64,000 nucleotides of DNA from Lichina pygmaea (taxonomy: Eukaryota > Ascomycota > Lichinomycetes > Lichinales > Lichinaceae), in contig OY730171.1 in NCBI GenBank assembly GCA_963422465.1, positions 3,100,001 through 3,164,000 of the forward strand. Reading direction: 5' to 3'. Numbering within the stretch: the first letter of the stretch is position 1; every line of letters starts with the position of its first letter. Position numbers and translations under genes: made by a program. Shown piece by piece: positions 10-49,204 of this stretch. A model generated the notes under the pieces. That model did no database searches, had not been told where the DNA came from, and was given only the letters and a program-made list of their open reading frames with translations.

Positions 10-768
10 TTGGTCAGGGACCACAGAGTTCCAATCACAGTCATTACTGACAGAGACAAACTCTTCACATCCAACTACTGGAAAACAATCAGTGCAGCCA
101 TGGGAACAAAACCCAAGATGTCTACAGTCTACCACCCACAAACTGACGGCCAGACAGAGCGAGCAAACCAAGTCCTGGAGACTTATTTGCGGTATTACAT
201 CAACCAGACCCACAGCAATTGGGTACAATTATTACCAGTGGCACAGCTGGCAATCAACCAGCACAGATCAGACTCAACAAAGGAGTCGCCATTCTTTGCC
301 AATTTTGGACGACACGCAAACATCGGAATGCCAAGCAGAGCTTCACCAAACGCGGAGAAAGCACTCCAACATGACAAGCTCCTACGACAAACGCATACGA
401 TGATGAGGCATTACCTTCAAGAGACCTCAGAAAAGATGCAACACCAAATGGACAAAAAATCGAAAATGGCACCTCAGCTGAAGAAGGGGGATAAAGTCTA
501 CCTCCTCACAAAAAATTGGAAAGTCAAGAAACCAAGAACAAAGAAACTGGACCATGTCAAGGTCAGACCATTTTCAGTCGAAGAAAGAACTGGACCAGTC
601 AACGTCAGACTGCGACTACCAAGAGACGCTCGGGTACACCCAAACTTTCACATCTCAATGATTGAATTAGCCGACCAGAGCACACCCTTGCAGGAAACAT
701 TTCATTACCAACCAGAGGAAGAACAGGAATTCAAGGCCGAACAGATCCTGAAGAGAAAAGGTCAGTGA
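10..768 (+). CDS. Integrase, C-terminal half (copy A, fossil)
   Basis: The frame carries late integrase-core blocks typical of Ty3/gypsy elements (ITDRDKLFTS, YHPQTDGQTERANQ, VLETYL), then the GKGDKVYLLT-like GPY/F-type C-terminal module and the start of the chromodomain (EAEQILKRKG). The integrase inserts the cDNA; the chromodomain is thought to guide insertion to marked chromatin. The chromodomain core ([15 protein letters not shown]) lies directly downstream at about 768-878. The upstream half is outside the window. Confidence 0.85.
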   Translation: MVRDHRVPITVITDRDKLFTSNYWKTISAAMGTKPKMSTVYHPQTDGQTERANQVLETYLRYYINQTHSNWVQLLPVAQLAINQHRSDSTKESPFFANFGRHANIGMPSRASPNAEKALQHDKLLRQTHTMMRHYLQETSEKMQHQMDKKSKMAPQLKKGDKVYLLTKNWKVKKPRTKKLDHVKVRPFSVEERTGPVNVRLRLPRDARVHPNFHISMIELADQSTPLQETFHYQPEEEQEFKAEQILKRKGQ

Positions 769-820
769 TACCTTGTCAAGTGGAAAGACTACCCAGACTC
801 GGAAAATACCTGGGAGCCAC

Positions 821-1252
821 TCAGAAACCTCGCGAACTGCCAGCTCCTCCTGCAGCAGTTCCGGCAGGAGCAGGACTGAACAGCTTGGCCTGCAGCGTGG
901 ACACATCAATGACTGTCGCCGACAAGTCTTCACCATCCGCCTCCATTTCAGCAACAAGGCACTGGAGCTTCTTCCTTGCTCGACCTTCAGCACCCTCAAG
1001 AACCTTTCGCTTTCGGGACACACGAGCCTGCAGCTCGGCAAGCTGCTCGACAAGAGCATCCCGCTTGGCCTCATCAACAGCCAAATCCTCGTGAAGGTTA
1101 TCCTGAGTCATGTTCAGCAACTCCCAAGAAAGTGACACACAGGACTTTCCCCGACAAGTGCACTCAGCGCACTTCAACTTATCGTTGTCGTCAGACATTC
1201 GGAAGCAGGGCTTGTGGTTCAAAACACAGAAGTCACACGGAGCAAGCAACAT
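821..1252 (-). CDS. Antisense Zn2Cys6 + coiled-coil ORF (copy A)
   Basis: An open frame of 143 codons runs opposite to gag-pol, from near the 3' LTR inward. Its tail overlaps the end of the chromodomain frame by about 58 bp. Near the start it has [11 protein letters not shown], then CAEC and RGKSC, giving CX2CX6CX11CX2CX6C, which is the exact spacing of the fungal Zn(II)2Cys6 binuclear cluster. About 95 residues rich in Leu, Glu, Lys and Arg follow with heptad-like spacing ([20 protein letters not shown]), then a small Ala/Gly/Ser tail. Cognate copies, which keep the same cluster spacing or a decayed version of it, lie in B, C, D and G. Known family logic: such proteins are DNA-binding regulators that often dimerise by a coiled coil. 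A role in the element is inference. A structural, non-DNA-binding role is also possible. Confidence 0.75.
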
Positions 1253-1365
1253 GAAGTTATGATCACAGATCTGGGCTGCCAGTTGGTTTCAGTAAGCAGA
1301 GGCACGTGATTTTGCAGACATACTCAAGAATTCATCAGGACAATGAATGAAGGAGAGGAGGGTAG

Positions 1366-1964
1366 TGTTACGACCCAGGGATGGGAGCCACTCATTTATA
1401 GGCAATCAGGCCGCGGGCCAGGCAAGAGGACACCATGGAAGTCAAGTGACCAACCAACAAGGGGTCACGTGACTGTCGAGACACACACAGGAGTCTCGAC
1501 GCATGATGCATGAAGCATCAAGACAATCTCACCAGTCTTGACGCAGGGTGCATGAAGCATCAAGACAATCTCACCTGTCTTGATACAGGATGCATGAAGC
1601 ATCGAGACAATCTCACCCGTCTTGACGCAGGGTGCATAACATGGTGGGACTGTCGAGACAATCTCACCTGTCTCGACGTCAAGACTGTCAAGACAATCTC
1701 AATTGTCTTGACAGGCCAGCACTATATAGTCCGGTGATAGTTCCCTTATGGAACGATTGTCTTCAACTCATGTTGTGATCCAGACAACTAGATCTACTTC
1801 AATACAATCCTTTGTACGAAGCCATTGATCAGGTGTCACCACCACCACGTTCCACCAAACCCCTTCGCACTCCTTGACACTCCTCTCCTGCAAGAACCAA
1901 CCCGCCTTCCACCTCTCGCCCTAATCCTATACTCAGATAGGACAGTACGGTACAGACCGCAACA
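1366..1964 (+). repeat. 3' LTR of copy A (family I, type 1)
   Basis: 599 bp bounded by TGTTACGACC and GACCGCAACA (TGTT/AACA inverted ends). U3 holds three near-perfect 42-bp tandem units (about 1506-1632), each with the dyad TCAAGAC-N10-GTCTTGA or a close variant (for example 1560-1583), followed by a degenerate unit. The sense TATA box is ACTATATAGT at 1721-1730. An antisense TATA (TATAAAT) lies 28 bp from the outer edge. The last roughly 230 bp (R/U5) are shared by every family I LTR. Confidence 0.93.
1394..1400 (-). promoter_or_regulatory. Antisense TATA box in family I LTR
   Basis: Read on the minus strand this is TATAAAT, 28 bp inside the LTR edge. A transcript starting 25-30 bp downstream would begin at the LTR/internal junction, about 45 bp before the antisense ATG at 1321. 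The other LTR types keep a TATA at the same place (18343-18351, 26461-26467, 49267-49274) although the bases around it differ. Confidence 0.6.
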
Positions 1965-2347
1965 ACTGCCAGACTTCTCCAGAAACTCTAACACCAAAAT
2001 GTGCAAACTGCAAGGGAAACCACCCAGCCTGGTCAAAGTCCTGCCAGAAAAAACAGGAAGCAATCCAGAAAGCAAGAGAGGTATGGCTAGCAAGACCAGA
2101 GAGGTACACAATAGCTCCCAGACTAGCTCTACCTCAGACTCCCTCAACACAAGAAAAAAGGCCAAGTCTACAAGACAGACAAGAAGCTAAGAAAAGAAAA
2201 CAAGGGGAAGTACTAAGAGCATGCTCAAGCTCAAGACTGAACACTCAGCTCCCCACTTTCCCACTTGCACAGAACTCAGAGTTCCAAATCAACATACCCA
2301 GAAAAAAAGCTACTGAGATCTTGGAAGACTCTAGCCAAGAGGATTAA
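1965..2347 (+). pseudogene. LINE-a ORF1, C-terminal part
   Basis: The frame that ends with TAA at 2345-2347 is open from 1965. It contains a CCHC knuckle (CANCKGNHPAWSKSC), then a lysine-rich stretch (REVWLARPERY, KKRKQGEV) matching the end of LINE-d ORF1. ORF1 proteins of this type are Gag-like RNA-binding proteins that form the LINE ribonucleoprotein. The N-terminal two thirds is absent because the copy begins at 1965. The stop codon shares its last base with the ORF2 start (TAATG). Confidence 0.8.
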
Positions 2348-5300
2348 TGAGTTACTCCACACTTAACCTTCTCCAGTACAATGTCCAGAAAAGCCAGACA
2401 TGCCAAGAACTTCTACTGGCAAACCCTAGACTACAGGAAGTGGATATCATCACTCTGCAAGAACCCTGGAAAAACCCCCACCAAGAATCAAGCATCTCTA
2501 CAACATTCTCAGTCTTCTACCCTTTACAAAGCCAGGAGCTAGGGAGAACACTTGTTCTTGTTAACAGAAGAATTTTGCGGTCATCTATAAGCCCAATTTT
2601 CTGGAGTAAAGATCTAGTCTCCTTGGAGATAAGAGTTCAAACAAAGTCATTCTGGATCCACAACCTCTATTTCACACCCACAAGCCAAAGGAACTATAGA
2701 GAGTCAGCTCAGACTCTTCTAGACCTACTGGAACAAGCTATCCAAAAAGAGGGTGAACATATTCTCCTGACAGACTCAAATCTCCACCACCCAAGTTGGT
2801 CAAAGTCAAGCCAGCTATACTCAGAACTAGCCTTATCCTTCAAGAACCTAACAGACAAATAGGGACTAGAGCTGGCAATAGCTCCCTACACACCAACAAG
2901 AGCAAGAACTCTTCTAGAACCACCTTCATCAGCAATTGATCTTTCTTTTATTTCAAGTTCTTTACTTAATTCTCTTATTTACTTACAAATTAATATAAGA
3001 TTCCACACAGAGTCAGACCACAGACCAGTGCACACAATTCTCAGTCTGGAGACTCCAAGAAAAACCAGAACAGATAAAAAGAACTGGAGAACTCTGGATG
3101 CTAGTCAAGCAAGACAAGAAGCTGATAACCTACCACCTATTCCATCTCTAACCAGCAAGAAAGAAGTGGATGATTACCTGGAAAGACTGGACAAAACTCT
3201 CCAAGAAATTGCAAACAAGACAACTCAACCTTGCAAAGAGTCCAGGTATGCAGTACCATGGTGGAACCAGGAAATCGAAGAAATAATCCAGGAGGAAAGA
3301 AAAGTAAGAAGAAAAGTACTCCAAGGCCAAGAGGAAACCACCAGACTAGAGAAGATAACTAAAAAGAAAAAGAGTCTGATCAGACAAGCCAAAAGAAAGA
3401 CAATCAGAACACATCTCCACCAGCTAGCAGAAACCCAGGACTACTGGAGAATTGCCAAATAGGGAAAAGAAAAAGCTGGCAAAGTTCCTGACCTACCAAT
3501 AGTCCCAGAACTTATAGGACAACAAGGACAGCTGGCAAAGTCTTTTGAAGAGAAAACAGAAGCTTTCAGGACTCAATTCTTCCCTCTGCCTCTACAGCCA
3601 GAGCCAGAGGAACAGGACCTGCCAGAAGAAACCTAGGAATAGCAACTATCCCAAGAAGTCTTCAAGGAAGAAGTACAAGAGGTTCTAAAGAAGAAAAAAC
3701 CTCTCTCAGCACCAGGCCAAGATACTCTACCAAATGGATTTCTAAGAGCACTGGGAGACCCTTTCAACAAAAGAATTGCTAAGGTTTTGGAGGCTTGCTG
3801 GAGACTGGAATACTTTCCAGACAGGTACAAGTCAGCCAAGACAATCTGCCTAAGGAAACCTGGCAAGAGATCCTACTGTCAAGCAAAAGCATGGCGCCCT
3901 ATAGCTCTCCTGAATACAATTGGGAAGCTAATGGAAGCTATTGCAGCTGCAAGACTAAGTGAACTAGCTGAGAAAGAAAATCTCTTGCCAGAAATCCAGA
4001 TAGGATTCAGAAAAGGAAGATCAACAGAATCAGCACTTTTTCTTCTGACCTCCCAGGTAGAAAAGATCTGGAAAGAAGGAATGGTTGCTAGTCTTCTCTC
4101 TCTAGACATCTCTGGAGCCTATGACAGAGTCTTGCCAGAAGTTCTCAGAAAGATCCTGATTAAGAGAAAGATTCCTAAGTGGTTTGTATCCTGGATCTTT
4201 TCCTTCACTACTTCATGTACTACCTCTCTGGTGTTTGATGACTCAGAATCCCCCCAGTTCCCTATATACTGTGGAGTCCCTCAAGGATCACCTTTCTCTC
4301 CTATTCTATTTCTTTTCTATATCTCAGAACTGCACAATACTGTACACACCCCTGAGAAAGAAGTTTCAGCACTTGGTTTTGTAGATGACACTAATCTTCT
4401 TGCATTCTCCTCTTCCTTGAAAAGCAACCTTCTCAAGTTGAAGTCTACACATTCCAAATGTCAGGACTGGGCAAGAAAACATAGTATGAAGTTTGCACCT
4501 GAAAAGTATGAACTTCTCCATTTTTCTAGAAGAAGAAGAGACAATCTTCAGCTTAGTCTAAGACTTGGAGAAGTGGTACTTCAACCAAAAGAAGAAGTGC
4601 GCATCTTGGGACTTTACTTTGACTCAAAACTTGTCTGGAAAAAACACCAAAAAATCATGTCACAGAAAGTCTTCAAATATTTCTCAGCTTTATCCAGAAC
4701 AACCTACTCTCCTTGGGGACTACCAGTCCTAACAGCATGTCATGTCTACACTGCTATACTAAGATCTCTTCTTAGTTATGCAGTAGAAGTCTGGTTCAAT
4801 CCCCAAAAGAAACTCTCTAATATTATTTCATTATCTACTTTCCAAAATAAATGTTTAAGAACTATAGGAGGTGTCTTTAAAGCCACTCCTATTTTCCTAC
4901 TTGAATCAGAACTATTTCTACCCCCTCTAGACTTATACTTCAAGCTGAGAACAGTATGTTTTCTTTCATCTTTCTATTCAAACACACTACCCAACTCTCC
5001 TTCTACACTTCTCCACAAACTACACAGTCAAATTTCTCTCTGTTTCTTCTCTCAGAACTACACCAAAGTCTCTGACAACTATTTCTCTAAACTGGAGAAC
5101 AGTCTGGCTGGAACAACTAACTACTAACCAAGACTTCTCAAAGAAAAGTCTACAGGAGGTTTTCCACAAAGAATAGGAAGCCGGATGGCAGGTAAGCAGA
5201 GGAAATTGTTCTGCTATTTGGGACATGTTCACCAGAAGGCCACAGAAGAAAAACCTCAATATCTTCAAAGGTTTGAGAAAAGCTGAGTCTAGTCTATTTC

Positions 5301-12382: not shown

Positions 12383-12976
12383 TGTTACGACCCAGGAGGA
12401 ACACAGTCTTTATATACTCACAGAAAGCAGCAGACAGGATACTGGACAGAAGTACCAGACAGCGTGACAGGGGAACCAGTCACGTGACCAGCGAGACAAA
12501 CCAGGAGGTGCTCGCCGCAGCATGTATATGCACGAACAAGTGAGCAAAGTGAGCAGAGCTCACCCAGCTCACCGCAGTGTGCATGAAAAGTGAGCAAAGT
12601 GAGCAGAGCTCACCCAGCTCACCGCAGCGTGCATGAAAAGTGAGCAAAGTGAGCAGAGCTCACCCAGCTCACTGCAGCGTGCATGAAAAGTGAGCAAAGT
12701 GAGCAGAGCTCACTCTGCTCATGAACTGGGCACTATATAGCCAGGCAATAGTTCCCCTATGGAACAATCGTCTTCAACTCATGTTGTGATCCAGACAACT
12801 AGATCTACTTCAATACAATCCTTTTGTATGAAGCTGTTGATCAGGTGTCACCACCACCATATTCCACCAAACCCCTTCGCACTCCTTGACACTCCTCTCC
12901 TGCGAGAACCAACCCGCCTTCCACCTCTCGCCCTAATCCTATACTCGGATAGGACAGTACAGTACAGACTGCAACA
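12383..12976 (+). repeat. 5' LTR of B (type 2)
   Basis: 594 bp, TGTTACGACC...GACTGCAACA. U3 carries four ~50-bp units, each with GTGAGC-AGA-GCTCAC (for example 12549-12563). The sense TATA box is CACTATATAG (about 12731-12740). The R/U5 half is shared with type 1. GTCTTCAA at 12770-12777 is the partner of the priming site. Confidence 0.93.
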
Positions 12977-12978
12977 CT

Positions 12979-12986
12979 TTGAAGAC
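12979..12986 (+). promoter_or_regulatory. Candidate self-priming PBS of B
   Basis: TTGAAGAC lies two bases after the 5' LTR and is the exact complement of GTCTTCAA at 12770-12777, which sits about 37 bp downstream of the TATA box, near the expected RNA 5' end. Only 18 bp separate the LTR from the gag ATG at 12995, which leaves little room for a tRNA-type site. Copies C and D have the same site. Confidence 0.55.
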
Positions 12987-12994
12987 CCTCAAGG

Positions 12995-13822
12995 ATGAGT
13001 ACCTCAGGAGCAACCAACCCCAACTTCCCAGATGGAAAGATTAGTGTCGCCAAGCCAGACCTGTTCTACAGTGAAAGAAACAAGGTTGACGACTGGCTTA
13101 TGCAACTCCAAGTCTACTTTCAATTCCAACCAGAGACAAAGCTGCCTAAGGAGAAGTGGCCCCTCTTCGCAACCACTTACATAAGAGGCAATGCTTATTG
13201 ATGGATCAAGCCCTACATCAACAAACATCTCTCAGGAAACAGAGACCACGACAGCACAACAGAATGGATGACAAAATAGACATGATTCAAGGACAAGATC
13301 AAAAGGATCCTTGGACTATCTAACAAAGACAAAGTGGCTATACAAATGATCCAGCACATCAAACAACAACGCTCAGCCGCAGAGTACACCACGCAGTTCA
13401 AACAATACTCAGTACTGACTGACTGGGATACCAACACCCTGATGGTCATGTACCAACGTGGACTCAAGGAAAACATGAAGGATGAAATCACCTTTGACAG
13501 ATAAGCAGTTGACACACTGGACAAACTCATCGCACAAGCAATCAACATCGATGACAAGCTATTCGAGTGAGCGATAGAGAAACACCACAACAGAGAATAC
13601 AGCCACTCCGCATAGCATGTGAGCAACCACTACAAGCCACCTAACAAGGCACTGCCACATGACCTATATGGCTATGCACCCATGGAACTGGATGCAGTCC
13701 ACCACAAGAGAAGGTTCACAAAGGGAAGGAACAACAAAAAAAGGAAAGCACTGAAGTGCTATGCCTGTGGCAAGCTAGGCCACATGGTGAAAGACTGTCA
13801 TTCAAAGAACAAGGTGCACTGA
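12995..13822 (+). pseudogene. B gag (fossil)
   Basis: Starts MSTSGATNPNFPDGK, with capsid blocks (KVDDWLMQLQVYFQF, KEKWPLFATTY) and a CCHC knuckle near the end (CYACGKLGHMVKDC, about 13759-13800). Copies C (21109), D (44686, minus) and B share this Gag. It is broken at several points. Confidence 0.85.
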
Positions 13823-16800
13823 CAGCAACTTAATACGCTCGACAGAGACTGGAATGTCATCAAGCCAGAGGACCCACCAGGAGAGGCTCAGCTATCCCTT
13901 GAACAATAGGACAACTACGATCAGACATTGGAAGCAGCCCACCAACTGGCAACATCAGGAGGCAAGGACCTACCAGAACAGACAGGTCAGGACAAGGGAC
14001 AGGAGCCCTTAACCACCTCTGATGGGGACTGAGACAAACCCACGTCTATCAAAGAAGAAATACCACAAGGAAGCTATGCTTACAGCATGGACCCACGAAA
14101 TCTACGGCACAGCGAACTACAGTGGAGGTTTTGCACAAAGCACTACTGCACCTACCACGAACAACTACGAAGGTACAGAGGACATTCACCCTACCACGCC
14201 ACCTGCCACAAGCATTGGGTCAATTGTGAGAAGGATGTGTGTAAGATCTATCTTTGGGACAAACGCCAACACACCACATTCCCCGGGCACACACATGATT
14301 AGCATGAACACCTCATGTTCCTACAGCAAGGCAACAACTACAACTGCTACGTTGACAATTGGCAGTACTGCCTTAAGCCTGGATGTGACAAGCATCAGCA
14401 AGACAAATTCATGAACAGATTCCTCAGAACTGATGGGAATGGCTGGACCCATTGCCCAGTCAGTAGTAAGACACTTCGATCAGGAAAAGACTGAACTCCC
14501 TTGTCAAGGGGCAACATCAGGAGCTCAACAACATGACCCCTAGCAACGTAAAGCACCTGTGATTACCTGTGTCACTACACGCCAACATGCCAGTACAGAC
14601 ATACGCACTTGTGGACTCTGGAGCCAGTGGAAACTACATCTCAAGACAACTTTATGATACCCTCAGCACTGGAAGGAGACGCAAGCAGCAGCCCTATCAG
14701 CTTGCGATGGCAAATAGACAGACAGAGCTAGTCTGCCATGAGACGCAGCCAATGGAAATAGTTACCAGACACCATGCTGAAAGGATCCACCTTGATATTG
14801 TTGAGTTGGCCACTCAGGATATCTATTTGGGGATGCCTTGGCTAAAGAAGCACAACCCAGTTGTTAACTGGAGGACAGAAGTACTCACATTTAGGAACTG
14901 CACTAACAACACAGCTCGGACCTGTTACCAGCCACAGAAGGTGTAGACAGATAAGGGAAGGAGTCCTCAGTGGAACCTCACCGACAGAAAGGACAACTCT
15001 CAAGAGAAGAGGTCTGCCTTGACAGGCACACCCTGGAACCAGGTGGCCAAACAGTCAGAGATGAAGAGAGAGGAAGTTGTTAACCCTCTGGAGATCCCTG
15101 AAGAGTACTGACCTGGGTATGATAACCTCTTTCAGGAAGAGACAACAACAGCAGTGTTGCCTAAGCACCAACCTTAGGATCATGAGATCAAGTTGCAACC
15201 AGGGATGGAGCCAGGATTTGGACCAATTTACCAGTTATCAGAGAAAGAGCTCCAAGTACTTCGCGAGTACCTGGAGGAAAACCTGAAAAAGAGTTTCATT
15301 CGAGAATCTCAATCACCAGCAGGATACCTGATACTATTTGCACCAAAGAAAGACAGAAGTCTTCAACTTTGTGTGGATTACAGGAAACTCAACAACATTA
15401 CCATCAAGAACTGATATCTGTTGCCAAATGTGAACAAATTGCAAGACAGGATCAGCCAAGCTACAATCTTTACCAAGCTGGACTTGAAAGGAGCATACAA
15501 CCTGATACGCATGAAAGAAGGAGAAGAATGGAAGACAGCCTTCAGAACCTGATACAGACACTACAAGTATCTGGTTATGCTATTCAGACTCACAAACACA
15601 CCAGCAACATGTCAAGCATTGATCAACAACATTATCAGAGCACACCTGGACCAAACAGCTATCGCCTACCTGGACAACATTCTTGTCTACTCGAACACGC
15701 AACAGGAACATACCAAACATGTGAAGGATGTTCTACAATTCCTACAACAGGCAGGGCTCAAGCTCAACCCAAAGAAATGCGAGTTCAACAAACTGGAAGT
15801 TGAATTCCTTGGATATATCATAGGGATCAAAGGGATCAAGATTGACCCTGAGAAAATCAAAGTGATTCAGCAATAGCCAACACTGACATCAGTTAAGAAA
15901 GTACAAGTCTTCCTAGGATTTACCAACTTCAACTGACAGTTCATAAAGAACTACTTACAGATGGCAACACCACTGACAGAACTCACGAAGAAGGACATGG
16001 AGTACCAGTAGACAGAGAGACAACAAAAAGCATTCCAACAGTTCAAGGACACTTGCGCCAAGAAACCAGTTCTCCTCAACTTCAAGACAGGCCAACCAAC
16101 ACAAATCAAGATGGACACTTCAGATCAGGCAGTAGGAGCATGTCTATACCAACAGGCAGACAGCAAGTGGCACCCAGTTGCCTACTACTCACGAAAAATA
16201 ACACAAGTGGAACAAAACTATAATATCCACAACAAAGAGCTATTGGCAGTTGTCAACGCACTCGAACACTGGAGAGTGTACGCAGAAAGTAGTTCTGAAC
16301 TCACTGTTCTCACAGACCACAAGAATCTGACAACATTCACGACAACCAAGAAGCTGAACAGATGGCAAGTCAGATAGGCTGAACTCCTAGGGCAACACAA
16401 GTTCAAGATCTTGTACACCCCTGGACAAGACAACAGGAGAGCAGACACACTAAGCTGACGAAAAGACCACATAGAAGATGATGAATACCAAGGAACAATC
16501 TTACAGCAGGACCAGCAAGGAAACCTGGTGCCTCAGCCACAGATCAACAAGCTCACAGCAGAAGACACTGAAGAACTAATAAGGAACTACCACGACAATC
16601 CAGCACATGGTCACCCAGGAATCTCTAAGACCACAGACCTTATCCAACAGGCAGGGAACAATGTTATTAACCTCTGACAACATGTCACAAACTACATCAG
16701 CAAGTGTCTACTATGCCAGAAAAACAAACATGGAAGACACAAGCCATACAGAGAAGGACACCTGAACACAATACTGAGAGGCCTGTGGGAAGACGTGTCA

Positions 16801-17859
16801 ATGGACTTCATCACAAAGCTACCCAAGTCCAAAGACCCAGTCACAGGAATCACCTACAACTTGATTATGGTGATAGTGGACAGATTCACAAAATATCTAA
16901 TAGTAGTACTATTCAAGAAGACCCACACAGCAGAACAGTTGGGACACCTTTTACTGGACAGATTGGTCAGAGACCACAGAGTTCTGATCACGATTATTAC
17001 AGACAGAGACAAACTCTTCACATCCAACTACTGGAAGACAATCAGTGCAGCTATGGGAACAAAACCCAAAATGTCTACAGCCTATCACCCATGAACTGAC
17101 AGCCAGACAGAGTGAGCAAACCAAGTCCTGGAGACTTACTTACAGCATTACATCAACCAGACCCACAGCAATTGGGTACAGTTATTACTGGTGGCACAGC
17201 TGGCAATCAACCAGCACAGATCAGACTCAACAAAGGAATCACTATTTTTTGCCAATTTTGGATGACATGCGAACATCAGGATGCCAAGCAGAGCTTCACC
17301 AAACACGGAGAAAGCACTCCAACATGACAAGCTCCTACAACAAACACACACAATGATGAGGCACTACCTTCAAGAGACCTCAGAAAGAATGCAACATCAA
17401 ATAGACAAGAAATCAAAAATAGCACCTCAGCTAAAGAAGGGGGATAAAGTCTACCTCCTTACAAGAAATTGGAAAACAAAGAAACCAAAGACAAAGAAAC
17501 TTGACAACATCAAGGTCAGACTATTTTCAGTCGAAGAAAAAACAGGACCAGTCAACGTCAAGATACAACTACCAAGGGATGCCAGAGTCCATCCAAACTT
17601 TCATATATCAATGATTGAACCAGCTGACCAGAGCACACCCTTGCAGGAAACATTCCATTACCAACCTGAAGAAGAATAAGAGTTTGAGGTTGAACAGATC
17701 CTGGCTAGAAAAGGTCAGCAATACCTTGTCAAGTGGAAAGGATACCCAGACTCGGAAAATACCTGGGAACCACTCAAGAACCTTGCGAACTGCCAGCTTC
17801 TTCTGCGACAGTTTCAGCAGGAGCAGGACTGAACAGCTCAGCCTGCAGGAGGGATGTGT

Positions 17860-18274
17860 CAATGACTGATCAAGTCAAATCCTCGCTATCTGACTCCATC
17901 TCTTTCACCAAGCACTGAAGCTTCTGCCTTGCACAGACCTCGGCGCCCTCCAACACCTTTCACTTCCGAGACAGACAAGTCTGCACTGTGGCAAGTTGTT
18001 CAAAGAGTGCATCGTGTGTTGCCTTGTCAGCGGCAACATCCTCACAGAGGTTATCCCAGGACATGTTCAAAGATTCCCAGGACACAGAGACACAAGACCT
18101 TCCGCGCCGAGTGCACGCAGCACATTTCAACTTATCATCTTCTCCCAGTATCTGGAAGCACGGATGACCACAGAGAACACAAAAGTCGCAGGGCGTACGC
18201 GAAACAAAACCCTGATCGCAGATTTGAGCAGCCAGCTGAGTTCAGCTAACAGTCGCACGTGACCTTGGAGGCAT
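17860..18274 (-). pseudogene. Antisense Zn2Cys6 region of B
   Basis: The minus strand reads CDFCVLCGHPC, then CAAC and RGRSC, which is CX2CX6CX11CX2CX6C, followed by SWESLNM and a coiled-coil-like stretch (FEQLATVQTCLS). It diverges from the copy A/C version at many residues (QILGEDDKLK in place of [10 protein letters not shown]) while every cysteine is kept. It lies between the chromodomain and the 3' LTR. The copy is broken. Confidence 0.65.
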
Positions 18275-18317
18275 GACCAGATTTCATCAAGACAATGAAA
18301 GATGGAGAGGAGGATAG

Positions 18318-18911
18318 TGTTACAACCCAGGAGGAACACAGTCTTTATATACTCACAGAAAGCAGCAGACAGGATACTGGACAGAAGTACCAGACAGCGT
18401 GACACAGGAACCGGTCACGTGACTGGTGAGACAAACCAGGGGGTGCTCGCCACAGCATGCATATGCACGAACAAGTGAGCAGAGTGAGCAGAGCTCACCC
18501 AGCTCACCGCAGTGTGCATGAAAAGTGAGCAAAGTGAGCAGAGCTCACCCAGCTCGCCGCAGCGTGCATGAAAAGTGAGCAAAGTGAGCAGAGCTCACCC
18601 AGCTCACCGCAGCGTGCATGAAAAGTGAGCAAAGTGAGCAGAGCTCACTCTGCTCACAAACTGGGCACTATATAGCCAGGCGATAGTTCCCCTATGGAAC
18701 AATCATCTTCAACTTATGTTGTGATCCAGACAACTAGATCTACTTCAATACAATCCTTTTGTATGAAGCTGTTGATCAGGTGTCACCACCACCACATTCC
18801 ACCAAACCCCTTCGCACTCCTTGACACTCCTCTCCTGCGAGAACCAACCCGCCTTCCACCTCTTGCCCTAATCCTATACTCGGATAGGACAGTACAGTAC
18901 AGACCGCAACA
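18318..18911 (+). repeat. 3' LTR of B (type 2)
   Basis: 594 bp, TGTTACAACC...GACCGCAACA, with the same four U3 units as the 5' LTR. The antisense TATA (TATATAAAG on the minus strand, 18343-18351) lies 25 bp from the outer edge. Confidence 0.93.
18343..18351 (-). promoter_or_regulatory. Antisense TATA box in type 2 LTR
   Basis: Minus strand TATATAAAG, 25 bp inside the LTR, at the same place as TATAAAT in type 1. The surrounding 40 bp differ between the types, so the box looks kept while its context changed. Confidence 0.6.
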
Positions 18912-19659
18912 CTAGATATTGGGTTGGGAATAGTGGAGTTTGAAAGCTAGATTAAACTGGTTTAGTCTTTTCAAAAACATAAACCAGTACAAGAACTTCT
19001 GTAGTAGATCTGGGTTTGAAATAATAGTGGTGAAGTCTTGGGGATTAAAAAAGACTTCTTGTCTTTGTCTTGAATAAAGAGAGCATGAAGCAGTGATATG
19101 TTTTGCAGTTTCTTCTGCTTGGCCACACACACATAGTGGGGTAGGGAAGTCAGAAACTCCAGCTCTGAAAAGAAAACTTGCCAGACCAATTCTTCCAGTC
19201 CTGATTTGCAGTAGCAGACTTGCCTCAGCTTTCTGTAACTCTTTGTAGAGCTTCAGATTGTTTTTGTGTGGCTTTTGATAGAAAGTCTGCCAGCCTGGAT
19301 AGCTTCTTCTTTTCTTCTCTTCCCATTGGTCTTCCCACTCTTTAGTAAAGAGCTTTTGTAGTTCTTTCTTTGAACTAGCCTGGTTAGTAGTTATTTGACT
19401 TAACCAAGTGAATTTCCACTTAGGAGAGATAGTTGAGAGTTCCTTTAAAGGTTTCTTCAAGAGAGAGGCATAGCTGGAAATAGTGGAAAAGATACTGTCA
19501 AGAAAGTATTTGAGAGGGGAGTTTTGAATAGAAGAAAGAAAACAGGCAGTGTGAAATTTAAAGTAGAGGTCTAGAGGTAGAAGAAAAAGCTCACTCTCTA
19601 ATAGAAAAGAAGGAGTGGCTTTGAAAGCACCCCCAATAAGTCTTAGGCATCTGTTTTGA

Positions 19660-21090: not shown

Positions 21091-21108
21091 CTTTGAAGAC
21101 CCTCAAGG

Positions 21109-21936: not shown

Positions 21937-22041
21937 CAGCAACTTAATACGCTCGACGGAGACTGGAATGTCATCAAGCCAGAGGACCCACCAGGAGAGG
22001 CTCAGCTATCCCTCGAACAATGGGACGACTACGATCAGATA

Positions 22042-22608: not shown

Positions 22609-22646
22609 ACTCCCTTGTCAAGGGGTGACATCGGGAGCTCAACAAC

Positions 22647-25220: not shown

Positions 25221-25253
25221 ACGGAGCGAGCAAACCAAGTCCTGGAGACTTAT

Positions 25254-25979
25254 TTGCGGCATTACATCAACCAGACCCACAGCAATTGGGTACAATTATT
25301 ACCAGTGGCACAGCTGGCAATCAACCAGCACAGATCAGACTCAACAAAGGAATCACCATTCTTTGCCAATTTTGGACGACACGCAAACATCGGAATGCCA
25401 AGCAGAGCTTCACCAAACACGGAGAAAGCACTCCAACATGACAAGCTCCTACGACAAACGCATACAATGATGAGGCATTACCTTCAAGAGACCTCAGAAA
25501 AGATGCAACGCCAAATGGACAAAAAATCGAAAATGGCACCTCAGCTGAAGAAGGGGGATAAAGTCTACCTCCTCACAAAAAATTGGAAAGTCAAGAAACC
25601 AAGAACAAAGAAACTGGACCATGTCAAGGTCAGACCATTTTCAGTCGAAGAAAGAACTGGACCAGTCAACGTCAGACTGCGACTACCGAGAGACGCTCGG
25701 GTACACCCAAACTTTCACATCTCAATGATCGAATTAGCCGACCAGAGCACACCCTTGCAGGAAACATTTCATTACCAACCAGAGGAAGAACAGGAATTCG
25801 AGGCTGAACAGATCCTGAAGAGAAAAGGTCAGCGATACCTTGTCAAGTGGAAAGACTACCCAGACTCGGAAAATACCTGGGAGCCACTCAGGAACCTCGC
25901 GAACTGCCAGCTCCTCCTGCAGCAGTTCCGGCAGGAGCAGGACCGAACAGCTTGGCCTGCAGCGCGGACGCATCAATGA
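25254..25979 (+). CDS. C integrase C-terminus and chromodomain (fossil)
   Basis: 241 codons with the GKDKVYLL-type C-terminal integrase region and a full chromodomain ([30 protein letters not shown]). Almost identical to copy A at 188-878. Confidence 0.9.
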   Translation: MRHYINQTHSNWVQLLPVAQLAINQHRSDSTKESPFFANFGRHANIGMPSRASPNTEKALQHDKLLRQTHTMMRHYLQETSEKMQRQMDKKSKMAPQLKKGDKVYLLTKNWKVKKPRTKKLDHVKVRPFSVEERTGPVNVRLRLPRDARVHPNFHISMIELADQSTPLQETFHYQPEEEQEFEAEQILKRKGQRYLVKWKDYPDSENTWEPLRNLANCQLLLQQFRQEQDRTAWPAARTHQ

Positions 25980-26079
25980 CTGTCGCCGACAAGTCTTCAC
26001 CATCCACCTCCATTTCAGCAACAAGGCACTGGAGCTTCTTCCTTGCTCAACCCTCAGCACCCTCAAGAACCTTTCACTT

Positions 26080-26388
26080 TCAGGACACACGAGCCTGCAG
26101 CTCGGCAAGCTGCTCGACAAGAGCATCCCACTTGGCCTCATCAACAGCCAAATCCTCGCGAAGGTTATCCCGAGTCATGTTCAGCGACTCCCAAGAAAGT
26201 GACACACAGGACTTTCCCCGACGAGTGCACTCAGCGCACTTCAACTTATCGTTGTCGTCAGACATTCGGAAGCAGGGCTTGTGGTTCAAAACACAGAAGT
26301 CACACAGAGCAAGTGATATGAAGTTATGATCACAGATCTGGGCTGCCAGTTGGTTTCGGTAAGCAGAGGCACGTGATTTTGCAGACAT
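26080..26388 (-). pseudogene. Antisense Zn2Cys6 region of C
   Basis: The frame on the minus strand starts MSAKSRASAYRNQ at 26388, 45 bp inside the 3' LTR edge, and holds [15 protein letters not shown] and RGKSC with perfect Zn2Cys6 spacing, then [20 protein letters not shown]. It is the best view of the N-terminus of this ORF. Cognate stretches are in A, B, D and G. Confidence 0.7.
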
Positions 26389-26432
26389 ACTCAAGAATTC
26401 ATCGGGACAATGAATGAAGGAGAGGAGGGTAG

Positions 26433-27031
26433 TGTTACGACCCAGGGATGGGAGCCACTCATTTATAGGCAATCAGGCCGCAGGCCAGGCAAGAGGACAC
26501 CATGGAAGTCAAGTGACCAACCAACAAGGGGTCACGTGACTGTCGAGACACACACAGAAGTCTCGACGCATGATGCATGAAGCATCAAGACAATCTCACC
26601 AGTCTTGACGCAGGATGCATGAAGCATCAAGACAATCTCACCAGTCTCGACGCAGGATGCATGAAGCATCAAGACAATCTCACCTGTCTCAACGCAGGGT
26701 GCATAACATGGTGGGACCGTCGAGACAATCTCACCCGTCTCGACATCAAGACTGTCGAGACAATCTTGATTGTCTTGACAGGCCAGCACTATATAGTCCG
26801 GCGATAGTTCCCTTATGGAACAATCATCTTCAACTCATGTTGTGATCCAGACAACTAGATCTACTTCAATACAATCCTTTGTACGAAGCTATTGATCAGG
26901 TGTCACCACCACCATGTTCCACCAAACCCCTTCGCGCTCCTTGACACTCCTCTCCTGCGAGAACCAACCCGCCTTCCACCTCTCGCCCTAATCCTATACT
27001 CGGATAGGACAGTACGGTACAGACCGCAACA
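26433..27031 (+). repeat. 3' LTR of C (type 1)
   Basis: 599 bp, partner of 20492-21090. The antisense TATA is at 26461-26467 (TATAAAT on minus), 28 bp inside the edge. Confidence 0.93.
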
Positions 27032-32997: not shown

Positions 32998-33042
32998 CTA
33001 CCCTCCTCTCCTTCATTCATCATCCTGATGAATTCTTGAGTA

Positions 33043-33540
33043 TGTCTGCAAAATCATGTGCCTCTGCTTACTGAAACCAACTGGCAGCCCAGATCTGTGA
33101 TCATAACTTTGTGTCGCTTGCTCTGTGTGACTTCTGTGTTTTGAACCACAAGCCCTGCTTCCAAATGTCTGACAACAACAATAAGTTGAAGTGCGCTGAA
33201 TACACTCATTGTGGGAAGTTCTGTGTGTCACTTTCTTGGGAGTTGTTGAACATGACTCAAGATAACCTTCGCAAGGATTTGGCTGTTGATGAGGCCAAGT
33301 GGGATGCTCTTGTTAAGCAGCTTGCCAAGCTGCAGGCTTGTGTGTCCCAAAAGCGAAAGATTCTTGAGGGTGCTGAGGGTTGAGCGAAGAAGAAGCTCCA
33401 GTGTCTTGTTGCTGAAATGGAGGCAGATAGTGAAGATTTGTCAGCGACAGTCATTGACGTGTCCGCGCTGCAGGCCGAGCTGTTCAGTCCTGCTTCTGCC
33501 GGAACTGCTGCAGGAGGAGCTGGCAGTTCACAAGGTTTGT
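33043..33540 (+). pseudogene. Antisense Zn2Cys6 region of D
   Basis: Opposite to the D coding strand. It starts MSAKSCASAY-like at 33043, has [11 protein letters not shown] and a partly decayed second cysteine group, and continues with [20 protein letters not shown] and the coiled-coil region toward the chromodomain. The layout is the same as in A and C. The copy is broken. Confidence 0.65.
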
Positions 33541-34521
33541 GAGTGGTTCCCAGGTATTTTCCGAGTCTGGGTAGTTTTTCCACTTGACAAGGTATCGCTG
33601 ATCTTTTCTCTTCAGGATCTGTTCAGCCTTGAATTCCTGTTCTTCTTCAGGTTGGTAATGGAATGTTTCCTGCAAGGGTGTGCTCTGGTCAGCTGGTTCA
33701 ATCATTGATATATGAAAGTTTGGATGGACTCTGGCATCCCTTGGTAGTTGTATCTTGATGTTGACTGGTTCTGTTTTTTCTTCGACCGAAAATAGTCTGA
33801 CCTTGATATTGTCAAGTTTCTTTGTCTTTGGTTTCTTTGTTTTCCAATTTCTTGTAAGGAGGTAGACTTTATCCCCCTTCTTTAGCTGAGGTGCCATTTT
33901 TGATTTCTTGTCCATTTGACATTGCATTCTTTCTGAGGTCTCTTGAAGGTAGTGCCTCATCATCATGTGTGTTTGTCGTAGGAGCTTGTCATGTTGGAGT
34001 GCTTTCTCTGTGTTTGGTGAAGCTCTGCTTGGCATCCTGATGTTCGCATGTTGTCCAAAATTGGCAAAAAATAGTGATTCCTTTGTTGAGTCTGATCTGT
34101 GCTGGTTGATTGCCAGCTGTGCCACCGGTAATAACTGTACCCAATTGCTGTGGGTCTGGTTGATGTAATGCTGTAAGTAAGTCTCCAGGACTTGGTTTGC
34201 TTGCTCTGTCTGGCTATCAGTTTGTGGGTGATAGGCCGTAGACATTTTGGGTTTTGTTCCCATGGCTGCACTGATTGTCTTCCAGTAGTTGGATGTGAAG
34301 AGTTTGTCTCTGTCTGTAATGATCGTGATCAGAACTCCGTGGTCTCTAACCAATCTGTCCAGTAAAAGGTGTTCCAACTGTTCTGCTGTGTGGGTCTTCT
34401 TGAATAGTACTGCTATTAGATATTTTGTGAATCTGTCCACTATCACCATAATCAAGTCGTAGGTGATTCCTGTGACTGGGTCTTTGGACTTGGGTAGCTT
34501 TGTGATGAAGTCTATTGACAT
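33484..34521 (-). CDS. D integrase and chromodomain (fossil)
   Basis: 345 open codons: integrase core (DFITKLPKSKDPVTG, VIVDRFTKYLIAVLF, ITDRDKLFTS, YHPQTDSQTEQANQ), C-terminal integrase module and chromodomain ([29 protein letters not shown]). It is the longest continuous integrase frame among the family I copies in this window. Confidence 0.88.
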   Translation of the reverse strand: MSIDFITKLPKSKDPVTGITYDLIMVIVDRFTKYLIAVLFKKTHTAEQLEHLLLDRLVRDHGVLITIITDRDKLFTSNYWKTISAAMGTKPKMSTAYHPQTDSQTEQANQVLETYLQHYINQTHSNWVQLLPVAQLAINQHRSDSTKESLFFANFGQHANIRMPSRASPNTEKALQHDKLLRQTHMMMRHYLQETSERMQCQMDKKSKMAPQLKKGDKVYLLTRNWKTKKPKTKKLDNIKVRLFSVEEKTEPVNIKIQLPRDARVHPNFHISMIEPADQSTPLQETFHYQPEEEQEFKAEQILKRKDQRYLVKWKNYPDSENTWEPLTNLVNCQLLLQQFRQKQD

Positions 34522-36974: not shown

Positions 36975-37388
36975 TGTTAAAGGCCAGTCCACGTTCACAC
37001 AGAATGTGGGTGGTCCTGTCTTCGACCGAGGAGGGCAGGGACTCAATAGATGAATAGCAAGTGGGGTAACTCTCTTGCTATTGTCACTCGTAATGTGCGT
37101 TCAGCCTGGAGAGCTATTCTCTCCGGCTATCTGGGTTCTTATATACAGGAGCCTGAGGGGGGGGGGGTCCTCCCGAGGGGTATCAGCTTTCTGCGTGGAC
37201 GAGCTGGACGAGCTGGTTACACATCGTCCACCTCGTCCACCGGGTCGGGTGAACATTGTTCCTGTGGACAAGCTGGACGAGCTGGTTACACATCGTCCAC
37301 CTTGTCCACCGGGTCGGGTGAACATTGTTCTGTGTACCTCTGTACACTCGCTTCAGTCGGCTCAGCCGTTCCGGCCTGGGCCTTAACA
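36975..37388 (-). repeat. 3' LTR of E
   Basis: 414 bp, TGTTAAAGG...GCCTTAACA on the plus strand. It holds two 69-bp tandem units (37195-37263 and 37264-37332), each with the dyad GTGGACGA/TCGTCCAC or one variant of it, a run of about 12 G, and a sense TATATAAG. In the antisense direction no clear TATA is seen before 37441. Confidence 0.93.
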
Positions 37389-37440
37389 CCAGCCCCTCCC
37401 TCCAAAGGTTCTGTCCCCAGATCCTCTCACTTCTCTTACC

Positions 37441-37971
37441 ATGACCCGGACATCTTGTGTTAATCGTCGTGGAGTCCTCGGTTCTCGTGTTGGCAAGATG
37501 GGCAAGGTATCCAAAGTTTCATGCAGCGCATGTCGTTGTGACCGTGCCAAGTGTGTCGTCAGTTCAGAGTCCACATCTTGCGGTCGGTGCCTTGAGAAGG
37601 GTCGCTGTTGCGATCTCCATCTCGCGGAGTCGGAGTGGGAGAAGATGGAGCTTGAGCGCACTCAGCTCAAGGCTCAACTGAAGGAGATCGAGGAGCAGGA
37701 GTCTGTTCTCCTTCCTCGCAAACTTCGTCTCCGTCGTCAGTTGGGTGTGTTGTCCAAGAAGGAGGGTGAGGCCATCAAGCGTGAGCTTGCTGCGATCAAG
37801 GATCAGGAGGATCTCGAGCAGGAGGCTACGCGTGTGGAGTCCCCGCCGCCTTTGGAGGACTTCTTCTCTTCGGAGGCTTTGGCTTCTCTCAAGCTTTTGT
37901 CTCCATCGATCCTGGCTTCTGCGGGTTTTGTCGGTGGAAACTCCGCAGTTTCTTGTTCGTCGCAGGGCTGA
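37441..37971 (+). CDS. Antisense Zn2Cys6 + coiled-coil ORF of E
   Basis: An uninterrupted 176-codon frame opposite to E gag-pol. It starts 53 bp after the LTR edge (the ATG at 37498 is a second candidate) and overlaps the end of the chromodomain frame tail-to-tail by 83 bp. CSACRCDRAKC, then CGRC and GRCC give CX2CX6CX8CX2CX5-6C, a textbook Zn(II)2Cys6 cluster with the usual CxxCRxxxxKC pattern. Residues ~60-135 are rich in Leu, Glu, Lys and Gln with heptad-like spacing (EKMELERTQLKAQLKEIEEQ), then an acidic Ser/Pro tail. Sequence outside the cysteines is unrelated to the family I version, so the layout, not just the copy, is conserved. DNA binding is inferred from the family. Confidence 0.8.
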   Translation: MTRTSCVNRRGVLGSRVGKMGKVSKVSCSACRCDRAKCVVSSESTSCGRCLEKGRCCDLHLAESEWEKMELERTQLKAQLKEIEEQESVLLPRKLRLRRQLGVLSKKEGEAIKRELAAIKDQEDLEQEATRVESPPPLEDFFSSEALASLKLLSPSILASAGFVGGNSAVSCSSQG

Positions 37972-39574
37972 AGTTCTCGGTGGGTTCCCACGAGTTCTCC
38001 TCATTGTCATACCCTAACCACTTGACCAGGTATTCAATTTTCCGTCCGCTTCTCCGGCTGTCTAGGATCCTTTCAACATCGTACTCTTCTTCGTCGTCCT
38101 CGAAGTGCCATTCTGTTTCGATTGCTGCGTCGCTGGGTGCTGGCTTGAGCAGTGAGACATGGAATACTCGGTGTATCCGTGCCTTTTTTGGCAGTCTCAG
38201 TCGGTAGTTGACTTCTCCAGTGCGCTTCTCAATCTCAAACAGTCCGATTCGTACATGATCCAGCTTTTTGCTTGGTCGCTTCGAGCGCAGGTTTTTTGTT
38301 GACAAATAGACCTTATCCCCCCTCTCCAGGGTTGGTCCCTTCAACCTTTTGCTGTTTAGGTGGTGGCTTGTTGTCTTTTGTGCGGATTCAATTGCAGTCT
38401 TCATTTCCTCATGCATAGCAGTGAGTTTTTCGACGTTCGTTGAAGTGCCACTTCCAGCCGCCATCGCTTCCCAGCGGGGGTTTCTGCTGTAGTTCGCAAA
38501 GAACGGCGTCATGCCCGTCACACTGTGTTGCTGATCGTTGTACGCAAACTGAGCCATTGGTAGCAGTTCTACCCAATCGTCCTGTCGGTGGTTGACGTAG
38601 TGGCGTAGATACTGTTCCATCGTCTGGTTTGTTCTCTCAGTTTGTCCGTCTGTTTGTGGATGGTAGGCAGTAGACATCCTTGTGTCTATCCCTAGCTGTC
38701 TTGTCCACGTGTTCCAGAATTTCAAGGTGAAGAGTTTGTCTTGATCTGAGATAATCTTCGTGGGTAGCCCTCGCTGGCTAACCAATTCTTTGAGCAGGAC
38801 ATTGGCGAGTTCGCTCGCTGTTCCTGTCTCTCGCCACAGGATCAGGTGAGCGTATTTGGTGAGTTTGTCAACAACCACCAAGATACTGTCATATTTCACC
38901 TTTGTTACCGGGTCCTCTGACCTTGGCAGCTTCACCACAAAATCCATTGTGATGGTATCCCAAGCCACTTCTGGGAGGTCCATTTGTTGACTCTCTCCAT
39001 AGGGTTTGTGGCGTGACGGTTTGTTTTTCGCACACTCTTCGCAGTTGCGAATAAATTCCGTCACTTTCCACTTCATTCCGTTGAAGTGGTAACGTCTCCA
39101 GATCTTTTCCAGGGTCTTGTCTCGCCCAGGATGTCCGTGTAGAGGTCCATCGTGATGTTGTCGAATCACGTCCTCTTGTGCGCTCTCTGGCACTTCTTCC
39201 TTGTTTGTGGCCGCAACGTTGTGGCCTAGGGTCAGGAGTGCACCCATTTCTTCAGTTTTCGCTAACTGAGGTTGAGCATAGACCAGAGTTTGTCCTTTTG
39301 TCACTAGGATTGGGCGCTCTTCTGTCGTGTCGTCTGTTGTCATATCAGGCCGTCTGCTAAGCACGTCCGCTCGTGTGTTTTCTGATCCTTTTCGATAGAA
39401 GATCTGGAAGTTGTATGAAGCTAAAAGCTCTGCCCATCGGACTTGTCGTCTGTTTAGCTTCTTCGTCGTCGTGAAGTAAGCCAAATTCTTGTGGTCTGAG
39501 TACACGTCCACTGTGTACTTTGCTCCTTCCAGGTAAGGTCTCCACTCCTGGAATGCGTCGACAATCGCTAACAA
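37889..39574 (-). CDS. E RNase H end, integrase, chromodomain (fossil)
   Basis: 561 codons: end of RNase H (VDVYSDHKNLAYFTT), integrase HHCC module (IRQHHDGPLHGHPG, CEECAKNKPSRHKPYGES), core (DFVVKLPRSED, VVDKLTKYAHLILW, YHPQTDGQTERTNQ), C-terminal module and chromodomain (VERILDSRRSGRKIEYLVKW, EENSWEPTENF). It lies in a single frame. Confidence 0.92.
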   Translation of the reverse strand: MLAIVDAFQEWRPYLEGAKYTVDVYSDHKNLAYFTTTKKLNRRQVRWAELLASYNFQIFYRKGSENTRADVLSRRPDMTTDDTTEERPILVTKGQTLVYAQPQLAKTEEMGALLTLGHNVAATNKEEVPESAQEDVIRQHHDGPLHGHPGRDKTLEKIWRRYHFNGMKWKVTEFIRNCEECAKNKPSRHKPYGESQQMDLPEVAWDTITMDFVVKLPRSEDPVTKVKYDSILVVVDKLTKYAHLILWRETGTASELANVLLKELVSQRGLPTKIISDQDKLFTLKFWNTWTRQLGIDTRMSTAYHPQTDGQTERTNQTMEQYLRHYVNHRQDDWVELLPMAQFAYNDQQHSVTGMTPFFANYSRNPRWEAMAAGSGTSTNVEKLTAMHEEMKTAIESAQKTTSHHLNSKRLKGPTLERGDKVYLSTKNLRSKRPSKKLDHVRIGLFEIEKRTGEVNYRLRLPKKARIHRVFHVSLLKPAPSDAAIETEWHFEDDEEEYDVERILDSRRSGRKIEYLVKWLGYDNEENSWEPTENFSPATNKKLRSFHRQNPQKPGSMETKA

Positions 39575-40309: not shown

Positions 40310-40369
40310 CCTAACCAGGTTGAAAGCACCTCGGATGTCAAACTTGGTAAACCACTTGGCTCCTTGGAT

Positions 40370-42180: not shown

Positions 42181-42213
42181 TGTCTTTTTGCCCTATGGCC
42201 TTGCATGCTTGCC

Positions 42214-42882: not shown

Positions 42883-42910
42883 CGTATTGAGCCGGTGTCC
42901 TATGTGTTAG

Positions 42911-48276: not shown

Positions 48277-48760
48277 ATGATAAGGCACTACCTTCAAGAA
48301 ACCTCAAAGAAAATACAATGCCAAATAGACAGAAAATCAAAAATATTACCTCAGCTGAAGAAGGGGGATAAAGTCTACCTTCCCACCAAAAATTGGAAAA
48401 TGAAGAAACTAAAAATAAAGAAACTTGACAATATCAAGGTCAGACTATTTTTGGTTGAAAAAAGAACAGGACCAGTCAACATCAAGATACAACTACCAAG
48501 AGATGCCAGAGTCTATCCAAACTTTCATATCTTAATGATTGAACTAGCCAACCAGAGCACACCCTTGTAGAAGATATTTTATTACCAGCCTGAAAAGGAA
48601 CAGGAATTTGAAGTTGAACAAATTCTGGCTAAGAAAAGTCAGCAATACCTCATCAAGTGGAAAGGATACCCAGACTTGGAAAATACCTGGAAACCACTTA
48701 AGAACTTCAAGAACTGCCAGCTTTTTCTGTGACAGTTCCAGCAGAGGTAGGACTGAAGAG
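48277..48760 (+). pseudogene. G integrase end and chromodomain (fossil)
   Basis: Continues G after F: C-terminal integrase module (KKGDKVYLPTKNWK) and a chromodomain (EVEQILAKKSQQYLIKWKG, YPDLENTWKPL), diverged but collinear with copy C. Confidence 0.82.
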
Positions 48761-48789
48761 CTCAGTCTGCAGAAGAGATATGTTGATGA

Positions 48790-49204
48790 CTGTTGCAGTC
48801 AAATCCTCACCATCTGACTCCATCTCTTTCACAAGACACTGAAGCTTCTGCTTCACACAAACCTTGGTCTCTTCTAACACCTTCCACTTTCAAGAGACAC
48901 AGGCCTGTGCCACAGCAAGTTGTTCAACAAGTGTATCTTGTGTTACCTCTTCAACAGCCAGACTCTCACAAAGGTTATCCTGGGCTATATTCAGGGAATC
49001 CCAGGACAGAGAGACACAAGGCTTCCCACAATAAGTGCACTCAGCACACTTCAATTTGCTGCCCTCTTCCAGTATTTGGAAACATGGTTGACTACAGAGA
49101 ACACAGAGGTTATAGGGAACAGGTGATGCAAAGTTCTGATTGTGGATCTGAGCAGTAAGCTGCCTTTGGCTAACAGTTGCACACGACTTCAGAGGTATGA
49201 CCAA
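48790..49204 (-). pseudogene. Antisense Zn2Cys6 region of G
   Basis: The minus-strand frame 48890-49204 holds LCVLCSQPC, CAEC and CGKPC, then SLSWDSLNIAQDNLCE and VEEVTQDTLVEQLAVAQ. It is the most diverged family I version and is closer to copy B than to A/C. Five of the six cluster cysteines remain recognisable in place even in this old copy. Confidence 0.6.

Follow-up and report, generated by a model that had tools for sequence, protein, structure and literature searches.

An antisense gene at the 3' end of two chromovirus families

The stretch of DNA considered here, hereafter the window, comprises 64,000 nucleotides of the ascomycete Lichina pygmaea (assembly GCA_963422465.1, contig OY730171.1, positions 3,100,001 to 3,164,000), and contains long terminal repeat (LTR) retrotransposons of two families which carry, between the end of pol and the 3' LTR and on the strand opposite to gag-pol, a gene for a small protein with six regularly spaced cysteines. 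The host elements are Ty3-type chromoviruses: Gag, protease, RNase H, integrase and Chromo domains were detected in family II, and protease, RNase H, integrase and Chromo domains in copy C of family I, whose upstream frame (22042-22605) gave no domain match in the scan.

The gene was first noted in copy A of family I as a 143-codon open reading frame (ORF) on the minus strand at 821-1252, next to the 3' LTR and encoding the motif CX2CX6CX11CX2CX6C, and it is present as described. Comparison with other copies reveals, however, that this ORF covers only the 3' part of a frame of 166 codons which starts at 1321, its own ATG being a secondary start, and it was therefore rejected as the full-length gene; the full frame opens with MSAKSRASAY or MPPKSRATVS. 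The original prediction was also right in finding the exact cysteine spacing in copies B and C and partly decayed versions in D and G, each of which has lost one cysteine to tyrosine and carries at least one in-frame TGA. One further such ORF, absent from that prediction, lies in an element of a different chromovirus family, family II (Table 1). This element (36975-43335) is nested within family I copy D (32396-45265, interrupted). The exact cysteine pattern occurs three times in the window and in none of 100 windows simulated with a first-order Markov model, while a looser pattern occurs four times, as against 0.01 times per simulated window.

The gene is abundant in the 32.5-Mb genome (eight contigs). 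In searches of this genome, 150 candidates were scored out of 505 for the family I query (P0001), out of 305 for family II, and out of 509 in a third search; all 150 scored places matched in each of the first two. The resulting 128 loci yielded 123 frames, since five loci (L065, L069, L092, L101, L118) were missed by the start-codon search rule and dropped without being defective, and removal of four duplicate places left 119 distinct copies, which fall into subfamilies I-A (33), I-B (18), I-C (1), II-176 (30) and II-190 (37). Nearly every in-frame stop among these copies is a TGA, this being true of all 47 in family I and of 15 of the 22 in family II, and the translations of many copies have arginine exchanged for cysteine, histidine, glutamine or tryptophan, both as expected of CpG decay.

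In both families the antisense gene overlaps the end of pol tail to tail by about 80-90 nt. In copy A, where the final stop of pol lies at 910-912, the overlap spans 821-912, or 92 of 501 nt, so that most of the antisense gene lies outside the sense frame, as had been claimed. At all 67 loci of I-A and II-176 with enough flanking sequence, a number in which four places figure twice, pol is encoded on the opposite strand and ends 76-88 nt inside the antisense frame, and the same layout is seen in I-B (window copy B) and II-190 (loci L131 and L132).

Table 1. Positions in the window of the antisense genes and of associated element features
Feature	Position	Strand	Remarks
Copy A antisense gene (family I), full frame	821..1321	-	166 codons plus stop; TGA at codon 11
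Copy A cysteine cluster, CX2CX6CX11CX2CX6C	1139..1237	-	
Copy A long helix, predicted coiled coil	938..1135	-	Residues ~63-128; AlphaFold model of equal-length relative; heptad-sized length steps
Copy A pol 3' end (integrase C-terminus, chromodomain)	10..912	+	Premature TGA at 766 and 877; Chromo seen in sister copy C
Copy A 3' LTR (family I)	1366..1964	+	599 bp
Copy A antisense TATA box, TATAAAT	1394..1400	-	In 3' LTR; 79 nt upstream of antisense ATG
Copy B antisense gene (I-B)	17774..18274	-	Three in-frame TGA; six Cys intact
Copy B antisense TATA box, TATATAA	18345..18351	-	LTR position 34; U3 strongly unlike A/C
Copy C antisense gene (I-A)	25888..26388	-	Three in-frame TGA, all past cysteine cluster
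Copy C 3' LTR	26433..27031		
Copy C antisense TATA box	26461..26467	-	In 3' LTR
Copy D antisense gene, decayed	33042..33542	+	Element on minus strand; fifth Cys to Tyr; two TGA
Copy G antisense gene, decayed	48707..49198	-	First Cys to Tyr; one TGA
Family II antisense gene	37441..37971	+	Intact 176-codon frame; CX2CX6CX8CX2CX6C and long helix
Family II cysteine cluster	37522..37611	+	
Family II 3' LTR	36975..37389	-	415 bp; 99.0% identical to 5' LTR 42921-43335
Family II pol 3' half (RNase H, integrase, chromodomain)	37889..39574	-	Last 83 nt overlap antisense gene

Purifying selection on the antisense frame

The antisense frame is clearly under purifying selection between subfamilies, in a manner that other frames do not explain. 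The ratio of nonsynonymous to synonymous substitution rates (Ka/Ks), computed for up to six copies per group (eight for within-group comparisons) with the fewest stops and with stop codons skipped, is 0.131-0.246 between subfamilies, the excess of synonymous change for which the original prediction had proposed to look; within subfamilies it is higher (0.25-0.57), as for decaying copies. Copies were picked by protein score, which favours conserved ones, but this choice cannot explain their high synonymous divergence. The cysteine cluster and the helix that follows it are the most constrained regions. The ratio of nonsynonymous to synonymous differences per site (pN/pS) is 0.25 in family I and 0.35 in family II outside the pol overlap, and rises within it to 0.79 and 0.59, respectively, as mutual constraint between overlapping genes would lead one to expect. 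In the same alignments pN/pS is at least 1.2 in four of the five other frames; the frame that shares the wobble position has values of 0.34 and 0.48, but contains at least two stops in every copy. Codon-position tests on single pairs, with the last 66 nt trimmed, gave p = 5e-11, 1e-6 and 2e-12 with all sites, and p = 0.0003, 0.003 and 0.0008 without CpG-like sites.

These data bear on two explanations in which the protein plays no part. That the frame is an artefact of chance, of constraint on an overlapping sense frame or of base composition is hardly credible and was rejected; what speaks for it is that the sense 2 frame is nearly open in I-A alone (mean 0.45 stops). Against it, no copy of I-B, I-C, II-176 or II-190 is free of stops in this frame, its pN/pS is 1.4-1.7, the overlap with pol is limited to 80-90 nt, and the cysteine pattern is absent from the simulations. 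A second explanation holds that the antisense transcript itself matters, through double-stranded RNA or small RNAs, and that the ORF is incidental. Antisense transcription beside the LTR would indeed give double-stranded RNA, a possibility discussed for plant elements (PMC7264820), but this explanation is strongly disfavoured by the fact that, outside the pol overlap, synonymous sites in the antisense frame differ 2.9-4 times as often as nonsynonymous ones, and that the protein is recognizable in other ascomycetes.

A conserved cysteine cluster followed by a long helix

All 30 rows of a wide family I alignment (A5) share the six cysteines, which make up six of its 16 invariant columns, and the relatives in it are 31-63% identical to the first row. 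Within the copy groups, even the most variable of these cysteines is retained in 32 of 33 copies of I-A, 18 of 18 of I-B, 29 of 30 of II-176 and 35 of 37 of II-190, and the full pattern is found in 82 of 89 members with a complete N-terminus, the misses being six tyrosine-for-cysteine exchanges and one fragment (P0121). The claim that all six cysteines stay while the A/C and B versions differ elsewhere also holds, the cysteines of copy B being intact in a gene that is 65-77% identical to that of copy C (see below). Single copies of both families have gained extra cysteines, apparently by arginine-to-cysteine change at CpG; cysteine counts from one copy can thus mislead, and only positions conserved across copies are to be trusted.

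A profile search with family I returned 255 proteins at E <=0.01. The longest contig is 6.0-8.2 kb, the size of a retrotransposon, for 14 of the 120 matches listed, and two named relatives among these matches are proteins of Sporormia fimetaria (Dothideomycetes) and Watsoniomyces obsoletus (Lichinomycetes). Recent capture of a host gene was rejected on the grounds that the gene is present in two element families and has relatives in other ascomycetes.

The antisense genes of families I and II are probably homologous. Comparison of the A5 profile with that of family II (A3) gave E = 2.7e-5, a score of 38.4 and a probability of 74%, with all six cysteines and the following tryptophan in register, while scores remained at or below 23.1 in 40 cysteine-keeping shuffles and 19.4 in 40 full shuffles, reached 13.7 with a reversed profile, and dropped to 25.5 when cysteines were turned to serine in one profile. 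The probability of 74%, together with the 12.6% obtained with a narrower family I alignment, is the reason for calling this homology probable.

The original prediction placed a coiled coil past the cluster, and a long helix is indeed found there in structural models. In the AlphaFold model of a family I relative, the helix spans residues 66-128 (63 residues), with a block-mean predicted local distance difference test score (pLDDT) of 90-98 from residue 71 and an overall mean of 73; the family II model has a 71-residue helix past the cluster and a mean pLDDT of 66. Across the helix, 29 of 30 members measure 34, 41 or 48 residues, lengths that differ by heptad steps, and the remaining one measures 40; a cruder count gave 36 residues in 49 members, 43 in one and 42 in one. 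Together, the helix and the heptad-step spacing support a coiled coil, which would make the protein a dimer or a higher oligomer.

Putative promoter and joint divergence of gene and U3

The distance from the antisense ATG to the 3' LTR is 43, 44, 44 and 51 nt in copies B, A and C and in family II, respectively, with a presumed polypurine tract in between (this tract, U3 and R-U5 are named by position). For its leader to be of ordinary length, an antisense mRNA would therefore have to start within the LTR or at its edge. The family I LTR has an antisense TATA box at position 34-35, which is found in 31 of 33 copies of I-A, 79-80 nt upstream of the ATG, and in 18 of 18 copies of I-B, at 75 or 77 nt. 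Between the LTRs of I-A and I-B, alignment is confined to 247 bp at the far end and one further piece of 50 bp, and the TATA box is kept in both. The single copy of I-C, next to which the LTR is inverted, was left out of this judgement.

The antisense gene and the LTR exist in distinct versions, older than pol, in elements whose pol sequences are similar. Between subfamilies, synonymous differences per synonymous site (pS) amount to 0.244 in pol as against 0.723 in the antisense gene for family I, and to 0.069 as against 0.560 for family II (12 pol and 36 ORF pairs in each case, the pol comparison using just two loci on each of the I-B and II-190 sides). Copies B (12383-18913) and C (20492-27031) are mosaics, alike in gag-pol and at the LTR end and unlike in the antisense gene and U3: identity is 90-97% in each 100-bp step over 14882-17381 and 83-89% over the next 400 bp, falls to 65-77% in the antisense gene and 58-65% in the presumed U3, and is 96% in the presumed R-U5. 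In family II, identity between subfamilies falls from 95-99% to 65-83% at about 38040, inside the 3' end of pol, and the LTR and the start of the antisense gene are 73-75% identical. The higher divergence of gene and LTR is attributed to recombination by template switching, and the joint travel of gene and U3 fits co-adaptation of a trans-acting product and its cis-acting target.

A number of other features were observed in and around these LTRs. The inverted LTR beside the I-C antisense gene belongs to locus L149 (G000:C7:1388500-1389260), whose 3' end looks rearranged, and off-diagonal BLAST matches between two copies (L147 and L148) suggest a 73-bp tandem repeat in the II-190 LTR. Two stretches adjoining family I LTRs (1977-4488 and 27032-29549) belong to another repeat family and are 73% identical and inverted to each other. 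An intact 612-codon frame at 50963-52801 matches TruD/PUS7 pseudouridine synthase, and is probably a host gene beside the repeats.

A putative regulator of its own element

Zinc-cluster proteins of the Zn2Cys6 kind follow the spacing CX2CX6CX5-12CX2CX6-8C, with which the antisense proteins of both families agree. Profile comparison with the Zn_clus domains of the same genome yields a weak similarity, with cysteines in register, that nevertheless outscores cysteine-preserving shuffles. The antisense proteins thus resemble fungal factors such as Gal4, Leu3 and Cyp1/Hap1 in cysteine spacing, in the helix past the cluster and in this profile similarity, but differ from them in being encoded by mobile elements, in their length of 165-190 residues, in falling below the Pfam cut-off and, for family I, in lacking the basic loop. 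A Gal4-type zinc cluster, as originally proposed, is likely on these grounds but not established, and the proteins are referred to here as zinc-cluster-like, rather than filed as members of PF00172.

The interpretation favored here, with a probability of about 0.58, is that the elements encode a dimeric zinc-cluster regulator which is expressed antisense to gag-pol from a 3' LTR promoter, and most likely binds its own U3/LTR, regulating sense transcription. As an accessory gene of Ty3-type chromodomain retrotransposons, it would be transcribed from a bidirectional 3' LTR; its product, a small protein with an N-terminal Zn2Cys6-kind cluster and a coiled coil of 60-70 residues, would bind zinc, dimerize, enter the nucleus and bind the U3/LTR copies of its own element. 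Transcription of gag-pol would thereby be altered, probably downward, in a form of negative feedback or copy-number control, as proposed by analogy with HBZ of human T-cell leukemia virus type 1 (HTLV-1).

Several observations weigh against this interpretation. In searches with the PF00172 hidden Markov model, the check suggested by the original prediction, matches were weak: the best E-values were 0.0051 for family II (an estimated 17 bits) and 0.049 for family I, no displayed score (8.7-14.9 bits) reached the gathering cut-off of 21 bits, and Zn_clus was matched at E <=1 by 14 of 30 (A3), 5 of 27 (A4) and 11 of 30 (A5) members. Unrelated Pfam families match as often or as well, with DDE_Tnp_ISL3 in 7 of 27 members as against 5 of 27 for Zn_clus, and Bunya_G1 in 8 of 30 with an E-value of 0.0021. 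The cysteine region is of low confidence in both structural models, for which Foldseek returned one match at E = 9 in one case and none in the other. Basic residues between cysteines 2 and 3, which serve DNA contacts in Gal4-type proteins, are present in many family II copies (RRDRAK) and lacking in family I. CGG/CCG triplets, the usual Zn2Cys6 target, number 8-14 in the LTRs as against 17.7-19.5 expected from shuffles, a comparison confounded by CpG decay. In family II, an antisense TATA box was found in none of 67 copies (up to 110 nt), nor anywhere in the LTR of the copy in the window. Finally, the gene and U3 adjoin at the 3' end of the RNA, so that one template switch could move both without any functional link.

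The lack of a basic loop in family I, and the fact that the protein is small and, apart from the helix and a short tail, shows no obvious further domain, could instead point to an accessory protein that binds nucleic acids and serves the particle or integration, in which the cluster would bind RNA, cDNA or a host chromatin partner and the coiled coil would oligomerize. This alternative is considered unlikely, albeit less so than the others weighed here, since the position and antisense orientation uncouple the gene from the gag-pol message, the protein resembles Zn_clus profiles, and a transcriptional role agrees better with both the co-divergence with U3 and the antisense TATA box. Fungal Zn2Cys6 proteins regulate host genes, and a zinc-cluster dimer could thus act on these, or in targeting to heterochromatin, rather than on its own LTR; HBZ, for its part, has host factors and genes among its targets (PMC10186651). 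The joint divergence of gene and U3 suggests, without proving it, a target within the element; a host target is considered improbable.

If the product does regulate its own element, the gene and U3 could, as a tentative extension, constitute an exchangeable specificity cassette comparable to the immunity region of temperate phages. Each zinc-cluster regulator would recognize only its own U3, so that subfamilies closely alike in gag-pol but differing in cassette would be mutually blind and able to invade the same genome, and cassettes would be exchanged when a template switch occurs between two co-packaged RNAs. Gene and U3 are kept in two element families here, and the protein has relatives in other ascomycete classes.

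Relation to known antisense genes

The brtn gene of Boty-like elements of Botrytis cinerea was reportedly described by Zhao et al. in 2011. Antisense genes at this position are known as a kind (PMC7264820, PMC8365987, PMC4227169, PMC5987419): Boty carries brtn, and the plant elements Grande (gene23), RIRE2, Retand (TRP28) and PvRetro13 (ORF2) have antisense ORFs between pol and the 3' LTR (PMC7264820, PMC11963269). As far as its description goes, brtn shares with the gene reported here its antisense location between pol and the 3' LTR, and the latter may belong to the same gene family, seen more fully; a Monilinia transcript has been reported to match both pol and BRTN (PMC5987419). Some of the plant ORFs are described as having predicted DNA binding or nuclear location, but they belong to other protein families (TRP28, SMC-like), the region between pol and LTR is much longer in Retand, and the word "zinc" is absent from the main texts of these reports (PMC7264820, PMC11963269). 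HBZ of HTLV-1 is also expressed antisense from the 3' LTR, is nuclear, has basic leucine zipper (bZIP) features and lowers expression from the 5' LTR (PMC10186651). It differs in having bZIP features and no zinc cluster, in its spliced and unspliced forms and in acting through binding of CREB-2, and its function has been shown, while that of the protein discussed here is inferred.

The original prediction knew of no LTR element with an antisense zinc-cluster protein. Searches confined to openly licensed PubMed Central papers found no description of such a gene in fungal elements, although antisense genes at this position are themselves known from Botrytis and plants; "antisense" and "ORF" do not occur in a paper on LTR elements of Blastomyces (PMC11540331), nor "antisense" in one on Histoplasma (PMC13334192).

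Antisense genes beside the 3' LTR are thus described from deltaretroviruses, plants and Botrytis, and reviews regard their function as shown for the viral genes and open for those of plants. The antisense gene described here is linked to a likely DNA-binding class and is under selection in two element families. The sequence family could be used to find such genes in other fungi, and the natural allelic cassettes of gene and U3 make self-regulation by an antisense transcription factor directly testable.
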